Origin: Aliidiomarina iranensis
GTDB taxonomy: Bacteria > Pseudomonadota > Gammaproteobacteria > Enterobacterales > Alteromonadaceae
Reading direction: 5' to 3'
Assembly: GCF_003987135.1 (NCBI RefSeq)
Contig: NZ_PIPJ01000001.1
Coordinates: forward strand, 496,001 to 560,000
DNA: 64,000 nucleotides
In this document: positions 42,385 through 60,314 of the stretch, in pieces
How the letters are laid out: the number at the start of each line of letters is the position of its first letter
Numbering within the stretch: the stretch's first letter is position 1
The notes under the pieces: model-generated
What the model saw: the letters and a program-made list of their open reading frames with translations, nothing else
What the model was told of the DNA's origin: nothing
The model's database searches: none
Position numbers and translations under genes: made by a program

Positions 42385-43647
42385 ATGGTAAGTGAGAGAG
42401 CTGTGATCGCAAAAAATGATAATGACAACATGATCGTGAGCCTCGATGTTGGCACCAGCAAAGTGACAGCACTGATTGGCGAGATTTTACCAGACGGCGA
42501 TATTAATGTTATCGGTGTGGGGGTTACACCTGCGCGAGGCATGGATAAAGGCGGGGTGAATGATTTAAATCTTGTGGTGCAATCAATTCAACGTGCGGTA
42601 AATGAAGCCGAACTGATGGCCGATTGCAATGTATCTACGGTGTATTTGAACATCTCGGGCCGCCATGTAGCCTGCCAAAACGAAGATGGCATGGTGCCGA
42701 TCAATGATGCTGAAGTAACACAAGATGATGTGGATAGCGTAATTCATGCTGCGAAATCAGTGCCTATTGCGCAAGAGCGCCGGATTTTGCATGTATTGCC
42801 GCAAGAATTTGTGATTGATTCGCAAGAAAGTATTAAAAGCCCAGTAGGCATGTCTGGTGTGCGAATGGAAGCGCGGGTACACATTATTACCTGCGCCAAT
42901 GATATGGCGCGGAATATTGTAAAAGCAGTAGAACGCTGTGATTTGAAAGTAGAATCATTGGTGTTTTCGGCGTTAGCTTCAAGCCATTCAGCCTTAACGG
43001 AAGATGAGCGTGAATTGGGTGTGGCCCTTGTTGATATGGGGGCTGGCACTATTGATATTAGTATTTTTAGCGGCGGAGTGTTGCGGCACACAGCGGTTAT
43101 TCCCGTTGCCGGCAATCAAGTTACTAACGATATTGCGAAAATATTCCGCACACCGTTAAGCCATGCCGAAGATATTAAAGTGCAGTATGCCTGTGCGTTG
43201 CGGCAAATGGTAAGCATGGAAGATAACATTGAAGTGCCTTCGGTAGGTGGCCGGCCAGCTCGTTCAATGTCGCGCCACACCTTAGCTGAGGTTGTGGAGC
43301 CACGGTATCAAGAATTATTTGAGCTCATCCGCGATGAAATATATGGCAGTGGTTTGGAAGAGCAAATTGCAGCCGGTGTTGTGTTAACCGGCGGAACCGC
43401 AAAAATGGAAGGTGCCGTTGAATTTGCTGAAGAGGTATTTCAAATGCCTGTGCGGTTGGGAACACCAGTTGGAATCAAGGGTTTAAGTGATTATGTAGAT
43501 GATCCAGAATACGCTACCAGCGTTGGATTACTGCGCTTTGGGCAAATAATGCTCGCCGAACAACAAGAAGAACGGCAGCGCAGCCAAAAGCCTCATTGGG
43601 GACAATGGTTTCAGCGAATACAAAGCTGGTTCCGAGGCGAATTTTAA
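42385..43647 (+). CDS. ftsA: Cell division actin homologue FtsA
   Basis: A 420-residue actin-fold ATPase with the phosphate-1 motif SLDVGTSKVTALIGE, the phosphate-2 motif LVDMGAGTIDISIF and the C-terminal amphipathic membrane-targeting helix (WFQRIQSWFRGEF). It tethers FtsZ to the membrane. The start is uncertain: the ATG at 42385 has no clear ribosome-binding site, whereas GTG at 42403 follows a GAGAG sequence and gives 414 residues, closer to family length. It lies 21 bp after ftsQ. Confidence 0.95.
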   Translation: MVSERAVIAKNDNDNMIVSLDVGTSKVTALIGEILPDGDINVIGVGVTPARGMDKGGVNDLNLVVQSIQRAVNEAELMADCNVSTVYLNISGRHVACQNEDGMVPINDAEVTQDDVDSVIHAAKSVPIAQERRILHVLPQEFVIDSQESIKSPVGMSGVRMEARVHIITCANDMARNIVKAVERCDLKVESLVFSALASSHSALTEDERELGVALVDMGAGTIDISIFSGGVLRHTAVIPVAGNQVTNDIAKIFRTPLSHAEDIKVQYACALRQMVSMEDNIEVPSVGGRPARSMSRHTLAEVVEPRYQELFELIRDEIYGSGLEEQIAAGVVLTGGTAKMEGAVEFAEEVFQMPVRLGTPVGIKGLSDYVDDPEYATSVGLLRFGQIMLAEQQEERQRSQKPHWGQWFQRIQSWFRGEF

Positions 43648-43715
43648 ATTAAGAAGAAACTTTGCAATTTTTGGGGTAACAACAGAAAATACGGGTAAGT
43701 GGAGAGGTAATTATT

Positions 43716-44882
43716 ATGAGTACATTTGAAGTTCAGGATGATTTCGAAGCCGATGCGGTAATAAAAGTTATCGGCGTTGGTGGTGGCGGCGGAAACGCAG
43801 TGCAACATATGGTTTCGCAACAAATCGAAGGCGTTCGTTTTATTGCAGCAAACACTGATGCACAAGCGTTACGTAAACATGATGCCGATGTGCTAGTGCA
43901 GCTTGGTAGTGAAGTAACCAAGGGCTTAGGTGCGGGTGCGAACCCGGAAATTGGGCGCATTTCTGCGGAAGAAAACCGCGAAGAAATTGCTCGCCAACTT
44001 GAAGGCGCCGATATGATCTTTATCGCCGCTGGTATGGGTGGCGGTACGGGCACAGGCGCGGCGCCTGTGGTTGCAGAGATAGCGAAGGAACTCGGCATCT
44101 TAACCATCGCTGTGGTAACCAAGCCTTTCCCATTTGAGGGCAAGAAGCGCATGGCTGCCGCTGATGAAGGGATTGCGCAATTGAGCAAGCATGTTGATTC
44201 CTTGATTACCATTCCTAACGAAAAACTATTGAAAGTTTTAGGTAAGGGCACCTCGTTGCTCGATGCCTTTGGCGCCGCAAACAACGTATTAATGGGTGCG
44301 GTACAAGGCATTGCTGATTTGATTACGCGCCAAGGTTTAATCAACGTTGATTTCGCCGATGTGCAAGCGGTTATGCGCGAAATGGGTACGGCCATGATGG
44401 GTACCGGTGTTGCGAGTGGGCCAGATCGAGCTCAAGAAGCTGCGCAAATGGCAATTAATAGCCCATTATTGGAAGATATCGATCTTTCTGGCGCGCGTGG
44501 CGTATTGGTTAACGTAACAGCGGGCATGGATATGGGCATCGATGAATTCGAAACTGTGGGTAGTGTTATCCGCTCGTTTGCATCGGAAAATGCCACGGTA
44601 ATCGTAGGTACGGTTATCGATATGGAAATGTCGGATGAAATGCGCGTAACAGTAGTTGCTACGGGCATTGGTGCTGAGCGTAAGCCAGATATTTCGCTGG
44701 TAGAGAAGAAAGCGGAGCAAGGTTCATCGCGACCAACTTCTTCGGGTTACTCGCAACGGCAAGCAACCGCACCGAAAATCGATGAAGAGCTTGAATTCGA
44801 GTTGGAAGAACGCAGCCCTCGGAAATCAGGTGAGCCAGATATCTTAGATATTCCGGCATTTTTGCGCCGACAAGCAGATTAA
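43716..44882 (+). CDS. ftsZ: Cell division GTPase FtsZ
   Basis: A 388-residue tubulin-like GTPase with the signature GGGTGTG at residues 108-114 and the T7-loop region [11 protein letters not shown]. The C-terminal linker is acidic and ends in the conserved peptide [15 protein letters not shown], which binds FtsA, ZipA and ZapD. It polymerises into the Z-ring. A GGAG site precedes the ATG. No strong terminator follows it before lpxC. Confidence 0.99.
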
Positions 44883-44991
44883 GCGCAAGAAAGTAGGGAA
44901 GATAGAATTGCAACGCTTAGCGCTAGGCTAACTTTAGAAAAAGTTATTTGGCTTAGGTGCTTGGCGCCAAGATGGGTTTGTATGATCTGGA

Positions 44992-45020
44992 TTGACCAGT
45001 GCTTTATCATTTGGTATAGT
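44992..45020 (+). promoter_or_regulatory. Sigma-70 promoter of lpxC
   Basis: -35 TTGACC at 44992-44997, 17-bp spacer, -10 TATAGT at 45015-45020. It is one of the best promoter matches in the window. The expected start near 45027 leaves a leader of about 225 nt. It lets lpxC be expressed apart from the dcw cluster. Confidence 0.8.
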
Positions 45021-45184
45021 ATCGCCCCTTTACCCGTTACTAGCTGCGGTTTTAATGACCAACAGGGTTATAGAACCAGTAGTTAGTGGGGAAGTATTAG
45101 CTAAATGAATACACGGCAATTGGGAACATGCTGAGCCGGTATCGAAAATAAGCTGGTATCTACATAGAGAACAGATGAAATGGT

Positions 45185-45245
45185 GGGCCCGTACTTAGGT
45201 AGTTTGCGGGCTCAAACGCGAGCATCGTCATAGAGATGATGGAGG
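45185..45245 (+). promoter_or_regulatory. Leader hairpins at the lpxC ribosome-binding site
   Basis: Hairpin 1: GGGCCCG (45185-45191) with CGGGCTC (45207-45213). Hairpin 2: CATCGTC (45223-45229) with GATGATG (45235-45241), loop ATAGA. The 3' end of hairpin 2 uses the first G of the GGAGG Shine-Dalgarno (45241-45245), so folding could affect ribosome access. Confidence 0.55.
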
Positions 45246-45253
45246 ATTCAGTT

Positions 45254-46168
45254 ATGATTAAACAGCGCACAATCAAGCAAATGATTGCAGCTACTGGTGT
45301 TGGCCTACATAAAGGTAATAAGGTCAATCTAGTATTGCGGCCGGCTGCGCCAGATACGGGGATCGTATTTCGCCGTTCTGATCTGAATCCTATGGTGGAA
45401 ATCAAGGCATCACCAGAATTGGTAAAAGATACGCGCATGTGTACGTGTTTAATAAACGACGACAACGTACGTATTTCTACTGTTGAGCACTTGCTCGCAG
45501 CGATCGCAGGTATGGGTATCGATAACTTAATCGTGGAAGTTGATTCTCACGAGATCCCGATCATGGACGGCAGCTCGCATCCGTTCATTTATCTATTGCA
45601 ATCAGCTGGCGTGCAAGAGCAAGGCAAAGCAAAGCGCTTTATTAAAGTGAAGCAGCCAATTCGCGTGGAAGAAGGCGATAAATGGGCCGAATTGTTACCC
45701 CACAAGGGCTTTAAAATCGACTTCGCCATTGATTTCGATCATCCAGCAATTGCTGGCACGAACCAAGTTGTATCAATGGATTTCAGTAGCCAGAGCTTCA
45801 TTCGCGATATCAGCCGCGCGCGTACGTTTGGCTTTATGAAAGATATTGAACACTTACGAGCAAACAACTTAGCGCTTGGCGGTGGTTTTGATAATGCGGT
45901 AGTGCTCGATGATTTCCGTATTTTGAATACAGATGGTTTGCGTTACGACGATGAGTTCGTAAAACACAAAATATTAGATGCGGTAGGCGATTTGTACATG
46001 GGCGGGCACAGTATTTTAGGCCATCTTCGTGCATTCAAATCAGGCCACGCGTTGAATAACAAATTGCTTGTTGCCCTAATGCAACAACAAGAGGCATGGG
46101 AATTCGTTACTTTCGAAGAGCCAGCCGCAGAAGCACCCATAAGTTATCTCAACCCGGTGCTAGCATAA
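45254..46168 (+). CDS. lpxC: UDP-3-O-acyl-N-acetylglucosamine deacetylase LpxC
   Basis: A 304-residue zinc amidase that performs the committed step of lipid A synthesis. Zinc-site motifs are [14 protein letters not shown] (Glu78, His79), MDGSSHPF and [15 protein letters not shown]. The start at 45254 ([10 protein letters not shown]) has GGAGG 8 bp upstream and matches the 305 residues of E. coli. An in-frame ATG at 45236 lies before that site. E. coli LpxC is turned over by FtsH through a C-terminal degron; the tail here (SYLNPVLA) ends in small hydrophobic residues that could act similarly. Confidence 0.98.
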
Positions 46169-46173
46169 CAAGA

Positions 46174-46206
46174 AAGGCCGCTGTTAAAATAAGCGGCCTT
46201 TTTTGC
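46174..46206. terminator. Terminator after lpxC
   Basis: AAGGCCGCT and AGCGGCCTT form a 9-bp stem around GTTAAAATA, followed by a run of six T (to 46204) and touching the stop codon of the converging dciA. Efficient on the plus strand; the A-run on the other side is short. Confidence 0.9.
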
Positions 46207-46511
46207 TATTTGAGTGTTGGTTTTATTTGGATATCTAGACTACGAATTTGCGTATCGGGCAACTCCCGAAATTTATTCATAATATGAGCCTGTAATAAAC
46301 GAATTCGGGTCGACCAGGAACCATTTCTGGCGTAAATTACAAGTGTTTGCCCCTGAACCGCAAAACAGCGAGAGTTGGCAGCAAGATCAGCCGGAACTGT
46401 TGCTACCCAAAGAGCTTGTAAACGAGAAGTTTTAGCATCTTTCTTTTGCAGCTTGCTAAGGCTTCCCTTCGAAAGGAGCTCTTGCACTGATTTGGGTGGG
46501 CGGTTTAGCAT
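46206..46511 (-). CDS. dciA: DciA-family protein (DUF721), replicative helicase operator/loader
   Basis: A 101-residue DUF721 protein with the KH-like core (VWATVPADLAANSRCFAVQG region) and a LVIYARNGSWSTRIRLLQ strand-helix segment. DciA proteins help place the DnaB helicase and are found in bacteria without DnaC/DnaI. It is shorter than many DciA proteins, lacking the disordered tail. The location between lpxC and secA, on the opposite strand, is shared with Pseudomonas and Vibrio relatives. Confidence 0.85.
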   Translation of the reverse strand: MLNRPPKSVQELLSKGSLSKLQKKDAKTSRLQALWVATVPADLAANSRCFAVQGQTLVIYARNGSWSTRIRLLQAHIMNKFRELPDTQIRSLDIQIKPTLK

Positions 46512-46540
46512 AACGTATACACTTTTATTCAGGACATTGC

Positions 46541-47494
46541 ATGAGTTTAGCCATTATATACCGTGGTAAAAAAATCCGCATGAAACTTCGCTTTAGTCAG
46601 CGTCGTTTATTATCACTATTGGGTATCTCTTTGTTCTTGCTCATCGCTTATATGCAGCCTTGGAAGGGGCTGAGCAGCAACGCTCTAGTTGTGCAAGAAA
46701 AAATAGAGGCGGAACAGCGGTCTTTAGCAATGCAAGCCGAAGCCGTGCAAGAAGTTCGCACTCAAGCCCAACGTGAATTAACGGCACTTACAATGAAGCT
46801 GGGTGAACTACAAGCGCAAACCATGCGCCTTGAAGCACTAGGGCAGCGCTTAGCTTCGGAAGCGCAACTAGATACCGGTGAATTTGATTTTTCTCAATCC
46901 TTGCCTATTGGTGGTCCAGATCAAAGCCCTTATCAGAGTATTGACCATAATATTGCTGAGTGGCCTGTGGTTACTGAGCACCAGCTTCTTTCCGATATTG
47001 ATTTAGCCTTAGAACAAATCTCTAGCCGACAGAAACAACTTAGCCTCCTTGAATCTTTGATGTTGAATCACCATATCGAAGAAGAGCGTTTTATTGTTGG
47101 CCGGCCCATTCAAGATGGTTGGTTATCTTCACAGTATGGCGTGCGTAAAGATCCGTTTCACGGTAACCCGAGCATGCATAACGGCATTGATTATGCGGCG
47201 CCAGAAGGGGCACCTATCTTAGCTACTGGTGCAGGTATCGTAACTTTTGCAGGTCATCGCTCGGGATATGGTAAACTAGTGGAAATCGATCACGGTGCAG
47301 GTTTACGCACTCGTTATGGCCACATGCGAGCCATTAATGTGCAAGTTGGCGATGTGGTTACACGCGGGCAAACAATAGCCGAGGTAGGCAACCTTGGCCG
47401 TTCTACAGGCCCGCACGTGCATTATGAAATTTTGGAAAATGGTAAACACGTTAATCCAGCGCGCTATGTTCTGCGGCAAATGCCTGGGGAATGA
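46541..47494 (+). CDS. M23-family metallopeptidase (LytM domain) with coiled coil
   Basis: A 317-residue inner-membrane-anchored protein with a transmembrane helix at about residues 23-40, a coiled coil at about 50-110 and a C-terminal M23 domain. The zinc motifs HNGID (His213, Asp217) and HVH (292-294) are complete, so it should be an active peptidoglycan endopeptidase, unlike the degenerate EnvC and NlpD. The start at 46541 has AGGA 8 bp upstream. The family regularly precedes secA in this lineage; the exact substrate is unknown. Confidence 0.88.
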   Translation: MSLAIIYRGKKIRMKLRFSQRRLLSLLGISLFLLIAYMQPWKGLSSNALVVQEKIEAEQRSLAMQAEAVQEVRTQAQRELTALTMKLGELQAQTMRLEALGQRLASEAQLDTGEFDFSQSLPIGGPDQSPYQSIDHNIAEWPVVTEHQLLSDIDLALEQISSRQKQLSLLESLMLNHHIEEERFIVGRPIQDGWLSSQYGVRKDPFHGNPSMHNGIDYAAPEGAPILATGAGIVTFAGHRSGYGKLVEIDHGAGLRTRYGHMRAINVQVGDVVTRGQTIAEVGNLGRSTGPHVHYEILENGKHVNPARYVLRQMPGE

Positions 47495-59543: not shown

Positions 59544-60314
59544 ATGATTCAACGCGTGGCACAAACTAAGTTGTCGGATATCATCGTTTCGCAAATTGAA
59601 TCGATGATAGTTGATGGCACTTGGGCGGCCGGAGAGCGCTTACCCTCAGAACGGGATTTAGCCACGCGATTTCACGTTTCTAGGCCTTCGTTACGAGAAG
59701 CGATTCAAAAACTCGAAGCTAAAGGCTTGGTGTCGCGCCGGCAAGGTGGTGGTACCTTTGTGAGTAACGCCTTAGATCAGCAGGTGCGAGAGCCGCTATT
59801 TGAGTTGCTCGCACGGCATCCAGAATCACAATTCGATTTGCTTGAATTTCGCCACGCAATGGAAGGTGTTTCCGCTTTTTATGCGGCTATGCGAGGCACT
59901 GATTCAGATTTACAGCATATCGCCAACAGTTTCGCTGCAATTGCAGCCAAGCGCTCAGAGCCTATTGTTGAGCAAGCGCAAGCCTTGATGGTGTTTTACA
60001 CCAGTATTGCTGAAGCTTCACATAACGTTGTTTTACTGCATTTAGTGCGCGGCATGCGCGAGTTATTGCAGGAAAATATGCGGCGCAATCTAGAAGTGCT
60101 CTCTGAGCGTAGTGATGTACGAGAACAACTTCAAACCCATCGGCAAGCGATTGTTGATGCAATTATTGCAAGAAAGCCAGAACAGGCGCGCGATGCGTGC
60201 CATCAGCATTTGGCCTATATAGAAAAAACATTGTTACACCTGAATCGGGAACACACCCGGCTGCAACGCTCGTTGCGGCGGAGTGAACCTTTATCGACTC
60301 CAATGGAGAAGTAA
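59544..60314 (+). CDS. pdhR: Pyruvate dehydrogenase repressor PdhR (GntR/FadR type)
   Basis: A 256-residue regulator with an N-terminal winged helix-turn-helix (GERLPSERDLATRFHVSRPSLREAIQKLE) split over about residues 32-62 and a C-terminal FadR-type all-helical ligand domain. Pyruvate releases it from DNA and switches on pdhR-aceEF. A perfect operator is present upstream. The gene leads the operon and lies 9 bp before aceE. Confidence 0.96.
   Translation: MIQRVAQTKLSDIIVSQIESMIVDGTWAAGERLPSERDLATRFHVSRPSLREAIQKLEAKGLVSRRQGGGTFVSNALDQQVREPLFELLARHPESQFDLLEFRHAMEGVSAFYAAMRGTDSDLQHIANSFAAIAAKRSEPIVEQAQALMVFYTSIAEASHNVVLLHLVRGMRELLQENMRRNLEVLSERSDVREQLQTHRQAIVDAIIARKPEQARDACHQHLAYIEKTLLHLNREHTRLQRSLRRSEPLSTPMEK

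Follow-up and report, generated by a model that had tools for sequence, protein, structure and literature searches.

LpxC, the enzyme of the committed step in lipid A synthesis, is an antibiotic target, and to our knowledge its control is less well known outside E. coli. Promoters under stringent or growth-rate control, of the rRNA P1 type, carry a G+C-rich discriminator directly after the −10 element, and such discriminators accompany growth-rate and ppGpp control. In E. coli, LpxC is controlled mainly by FtsH proteolysis, according to the available portion of PMC12444477, and growth-rate-dependent control of the enzyme also acts through FtsH proteolysis (PMC6339880, available portion). The nearest precedent for control through a leader, likened to the present locus by position and by a predicted hairpin, is the lpxC leader of P. 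aeruginosa. Section 4.2 of PMC4651636 describes an RNA from the ftsZ-lpxC interval of that species and states that a C-to-A substitution lying 11 nt before lpxC, within a predicted hairpin, is accompanied by 3-fold higher lpxC expression. That leader, the PA4406 sRNA region, resembles the one described here in its place between ftsZ and lpxC, in the lpxC sense, and in a hairpin predicted close to the ribosome-binding site; unlike ours, the PA4406 RNA is 84 nt long and is said in the same text to be experimentally verified, and a mutation there accompanies higher expression. lpxC of E. coli K-12 (NC_000913.3) likewise has its own −10-like TAAACT between ftsZ and lpxC, followed by the G+C-rich stretch GGCCCGCC, whereas its intergenic region is 100 nt long and its leader would be about 51 nt by the rule applied below. 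A literature search, with subscription journals mostly outside its reach, gave no title on an lpxC leader in Alteromonadaceae among the best matches listed.

The window analysed here is a 64-kb stretch of an Aliidiomarina genome of 2.65 Mb, in which ftsZ (43716–44882, + strand; an ORF with Pfam Tubulin and FtsZ_C domains) is followed by lpxC (45254–46168, + strand; Pfam LpxC, 5e-110, with LpxC chains in PDB also matched, best 3nzk). The start codon was set at the ATG at 45254, since the resulting MIKQRT aligns with the start of E. coli LpxC. At the other end the window's LpxC has PVLA where that of E. coli has AVLA, and the degradation tail may thus be kept as well. No terminator-like site turned up between the two genes in the scan, and read-through from ftsZ may therefore add to the transcripts of the lpxC promoter. 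A terminator-like site for lpxC lies at 46180–46197, between lpxC and the DciA-family gene (Pfam) that comes next on the opposite strand (46206–46511, − strand).

From the sequence alone, an earlier reading of this DNA had proposed that lpxC has a promoter of its own at 44992–45020, followed by a long, structured leader. The promoter is present there on the + strand as TTGACC-17-TATAGT, matches the consensus at 10 of 12 positions and has the TG of an extended −10. Promoter-like matches as such were not above chance (2 in 43600–46600, against 5.4 expected), and it is conservation rather than score that makes this one credible: a TTGAC/−10 pair precedes lpxC in all 17 genus genomes compared and in A. 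celeris, that is, in 18 of 18 Aliidiomarina. A comparable layout was chosen in 146 distinct ftsZ-lpxC regions, mostly from the same GTDB family but taking in some other genomes, e.g. Photorhabdus, Pantoea, Marinobacter, Halomonas, Chromatium and Vibrio. These regions were obtained from 166 parsed ones by merging near-identical regions (same last 60 nt), and the sample includes 60 that were added from the 117 family matches whose listing lacked a locus. Loci were dropped when the ftsZ end was missing (L027 and L040), when the FtsZ tail pattern was unmatched (13 Pasteurellaceae loci), or when the start codon was not at the expected base or the ftsZ end was lacking (L165 and L168). The −10 scan demanded A at position 2 and T at position 6, which makes invariance at those positions uninformative, and the pick in Chromatium (L116) is doubtful.

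Following the −10 is a G+C-rich discriminator (45023–45028, + strand), covering positions +3 to +8 after that element. Over the 146 lpxC promoters these positions have a G+C content of 87.9%, compared to 38.2% for the whole intergenic regions, and 145 of the 146 −10 picks stayed the same when G+C content was left out of the choosing. The lpxC promoters therefore have the G+C-rich discriminator of stringently controlled promoters, a likeness to the rRNA P1 type that is read from base composition. As judged from these comparisons, the promoter is the conserved part of the locus. It is probably strong and growth-rate-controlled, and from the composition of its discriminator we infer control by ppGpp.

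The leader behind this promoter was delimited by placing the start of transcription 7 nt after the −10 in all genomes alike. The distance from the −10 to the lpxC ATG is 233 nt in the window, which gives a leader of about 227 nt (45027–45253, + strand) from this inferred start, close to the 225 nt first proposed. Leaders of the 18 Aliidiomarina genomes measured 25, 47, 50, 68, 93, 93, 98, 99, 101, 106, 115, 121, 126, 130, 139, 173, 209 and 227 nt, and those of the 128 distinct regions outside the genus had a median of 46 nt and a maximum of 187 nt, so that the window's leader is the longest of the 146. Its nearest relatives illustrate the spread: L003, with an LpxC 99% identical to the window's, has a leader of 139 nt, and L004, with an LpxC 95% identical, has one of just 25 nt. 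On this sampling, both length and sequence of the leader turn over fast between species, and the leader is not conserved. A leader peptide was considered and rejected, five short ATG ORFs (7–17 codons) ending inside the window leader with no convincing Shine-Dalgarno sequence by eye; no peptide shared with the L003 or L005 leaders was seen to be conserved. The ATGs at 45236 and 45239 in the leader are both in frame with lpxC. Elsewhere in the genus, CGGACCAG, which resembles a FadR half-site, occurs in 6 of the 18 leaders (L009–L014), in five of them 15–18 nt from the inferred start, and A. haloalkalitolerans (L005) has repeated TGACTTAACTGAGGCGTCTGTGAC units upstream of its lpxC promoter.

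Folded together with 37 nt of lpxC, the window leader has a z of −3.28, a value equalled by 1 of 200 shuffles. The predicted structure, all on the + strand, begins with a 5′-proximal stem-loop (45033–45091), to which similarly placed stem-loops correspond in the folds of L003 and L005, and continues with a stem-loop at 45094–45159 for which no counterpart was found in L003 by eye or by fold. It ends with hairpin A (45184–45214) and hairpin B (45223–45241), drawn from the fold and from comparison with L003 and, for hairpin B, also L005. These two lie within the last 70 nt, and the last base of hairpin B is the first G of the Shine-Dalgarno sequence GGAGG (45241–45245); the sequence-only reading had placed both hairpins correctly. 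Conservation of the hairpins in relatives was a different matter, since they are kept no further than one or two nearest relatives. Hairpin A keeps 9 of 9 outer pairs in L003; none is broken although five differ, four of them on one side and one on both. These compatible changes come from two sequences, and 286 of 500 shuffles scored as high. The pairs of hairpin B are identical in L003 and absent from L005, whose own fold has hairpins placed like the 5′ stem and hairpin A. The window leader could not be aligned with that of L005 by MAFFT, and no other genus member was seen to have the hairpins; MAFFT also misplaced the 5′ stem of the leaders, which was compared through folds only. A search of 44700–45400 against Rfam, up to E 10, returned two matches, both far under the gathering threshold (18.7 against 35 and 13.4 against 51). 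By eye, the inferred lpxC transcripts of Colwellia/Thalassotalea-like and Enterobacterales genomes (L069, L172, L147, L184, L076, L119, L123 and similar) carry a hairpin right at the 5′ end, with bases that differ on both arms. A 5′-terminal hairpin was not significant as a general feature of the leaders (p = 0.33 for 17 genus leaders and p = 0.13 for 86 others), and in a 45-nt test outside the genus the 5′ ends folded no better than control DNA from upstream (mean z −0.66 against −0.64).

Folding was compared between the two strands. The 34 long lpxC leaders (80 nt or more) had a mean z of −1.45 on sense against −0.41 on antisense, and 26 of the 34 had the lower z on the sense strand (p = 0.0002); leaders of relatives are not independent in this count. 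The 47 stretches taken from upstream of the promoter had means of −1.54 and −1.28, 27 of them being lower on sense (p = 0.16), and the two sets differ in strand bias (p = 0.011). A first run with 60 shuffles agrees with the later one. Overall folding of leaders and upstream DNA does not differ (p = 0.60), so it is strand bias alone that distinguishes the leaders. Taken singly, the window leader scores −4.4 on sense and +0.2 on antisense, and here the proposal of a separately promoted, long and structured leader is supported. After removal of five rows, which were near-duplicates or, in one case, had a doubtful −10, 21 of 29 leaders were lower on sense (p = 0.0007); the bias was 17 of 20 outside the genus (p = 0.002) and 8 of 14 within Aliidiomarina (p = 0.07, not significant), the p values of these three subsets being computed from rounded z values. 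We consider this moderate evidence, drawn from predicted folds, that long lpxC leaders are RNA and are kept folded.

Several elements around the promoter were considered as operators. The 12-bp palindrome CTTGGCGCCAAG (44960–44971), suggested earlier as an operator, was rejected: among 209 loci, including that of the window's own genome, the exact form is found in the own genome only, and at up to 2 mismatches its 6 matches in the window are near the 4.5 expected by chance. Over the −35 lies an inverted repeat, CTGG-ATTGA-CCAG (44987–44999), and TGGNTTGACCA encloses the −35 in 12 of 18 Aliidiomarina ftsZ-lpxC regions, its best form being ACTGG-N-TTGA-CCAGT. At up to 2 mismatches this repeat has 17 matches in the own genome, compared to 9 for the reversed control, and it was rejected as an operator used widely there. 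A PdhR operator at lpxC promoters was weak and also set aside: with up to 3 mismatches allowed, 6 of the 146 had a match, against 1.2 expected. In E. coli a PdhR site is located inside the ftsL-to-lpxC cluster, near murE and not at lpxC, in the portion of PMC7660256 available to us. A second regulator in the window (59604–60059, + strand) scores 32 bits with the FadR model, below its cut-off, and is perhaps PdhR.

FadR operators are described for fab and fad genes in E. coli and Shewanella (PMC4537474, in part). The −35 repeat resembles the FadR operator consensus and has its half-site GACCAG, while the window lacks the central TCCG. FadR is encoded in the window's own genome (TIGR02812, 380.7 bits, cut-off 249.2), in 17 of 17 genomes of the genus and in 142 of 147 of the family. 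A site with the core GTCCGACCA lies upstream of fadR in 17 of 17 genus genomes, and the conserved form TTGTCCGACCA there (L185, L240–L255) suggests FadR autoregulation in Aliidiomarina. A matrix was made from 11 distinct fadR-upstream sites, which were chosen with the FadR consensus; 23 of 47 fadR loci had the GTCCGAC core. At thresholds of at least 6, 8 and 10 bits, this matrix found sites at 27, 16 and 7 of the 146 lpxC promoters, where shuffles led us to expect 1.0, 0.7 and 0.3 and the rate in real flanking sequence 6.0, 2.5 and 0.8; among 100 control stretches of 250 bp after lpxC, 8, 3 and 2 reached these thresholds. The best sites were those of L175 (18.2 bits), L067 of Agarivorans (15.4) and L094 and L130 (14.5). 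In L175, L067, L094, L130 and L133 (11–18 bits), placement relative to the −10 varies. The positive control was poor, with 1 of 29 fabA promoters at 8 bits (one of the 30 loci was left unscored). In the window, the site ATCTGGATTGACCAGTG has no GTCCGAC core and scores 5.7 bits, compared to 13.9–23.4 for the 11 matrix sites. FadR at the lpxC promoter is not reported in the accessible text of PMC6339880, lpxC is not named as a FadR target in that of PMC4537474, and the word lpxC is absent from the main text of PMC5343134 and PMC3223726.

The explanation we favour, and to which we give somewhat less than an even chance, is a strong lpxC promoter followed by a fast-evolving leader that is kept folded as a passive protector and spacer. 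A strong extended −10 promoter of its own would drive lpxC in Aliidiomarina, with possible read-through from ftsZ, and because the discriminator is of the growth-rate and ppGpp kind, initiation would probably be the main control. The leader would be kept folded most likely because an open, untranslated stretch of 80–230 nt would invite RNase E or Rho, and it would not serve as a switch operated by a ligand or a protein. That nothing past the promoter is functional, the leader being neutral spacer DNA that folds by chance, is in our judgement unlikely. The leaders of relatives do vary freely in length and sequence, upstream DNA is equally folded overall, 8 of 14 genus leaders show the strand bias, and pairing at the 5′ end is not above that of shuffles; yet sense folding beats antisense folding in 26 of 34 long leaders, with −4.4 against +0.2 in the window, and hairpin A holds nine pairs despite five changed pairs in L003. 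Against a passive leader stands the state of the window's Shine-Dalgarno sequence, which is mostly paired, as would suit a local switch. Its last four bases pair with CCUU at 45027–45030 in the minimum-energy folds of the window and of L003, and it is unpaired at only 0.11, compared to 0.44 in shuffles, 90 of 100 of which were at least as open. The leader might be a cis-acting regulatory RNA limiting LpxC translation, in which a signal opens or closes this pairing beside hairpin B, and the P. aeruginosa hairpin mutation near the lpxC ribosome-binding site, with its 3-fold higher expression (PMC4651636, section 4.2), offers a parallel. We regard this as distinctly unlikely. L006, at 0.04, is closed like the window, but the remaining 15 genus leaders range from 0.36 to 0.68, and over 17 of the 18 genus leaders (that of L004 being too short) there is no trend to occlusion beyond the shuffled level (mean 0.45 unpaired in native and 0.43 in shuffled leaders). 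Moreover, the long-range helix consists of four pairs only, hairpin B has no pair change that could test it, and L004, so close a relative, is nearly leaderless. Control of LpxC through the hairpins of its mRNA, as the sequence-only reading had raised it, is thus not supported: closure of the ribosome-binding site is not common in the genus and may be a species-level effect, and a switch is possible but unsupported.

Control could also lie in a FadR-type operator over the −35, through which FadR, as a sensor of acyl-CoA, would tune lpxC transcription, the leader being incidental. The 16 of 146 promoters at 8 bits or more, the strong sites in four relatives and the wide presence of FadR argue for it, but the window's site ranks 15th in the 64 kb and is without the core that all 17 genus fadR-upstream sites have, the −35 hexamer itself accounts for part of the match, and the hits are common to related species. 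With a matrix whose sites were picked by consensus, and which finds a single fabA promoter and places 3 of 100 control stretches at 8 bits, we hold this account to be doubtful, indeed improbable, at the window's locus; FadR control of lpxC is a reasonable proposal for some relatives, and for the window a weak one. Still less credence goes to a wider scheme in which LpxC would be controlled at the mRNA level across Alteromonadaceae, with a promoter that answers to ppGpp and, through separate origins in several lineages, to FadR, with leaders selected for fold and not sequence, and with the ribosome-binding site closed by 5′-end pairing in the window's clade.

If the sense bias holds across leaders as divergent as these, selection could act on foldedness itself, which covariation searches miss. 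The widely kept lpxC promoter with its G+C-rich discriminator predicts that lpxC transcription would drop as ppGpp rises.
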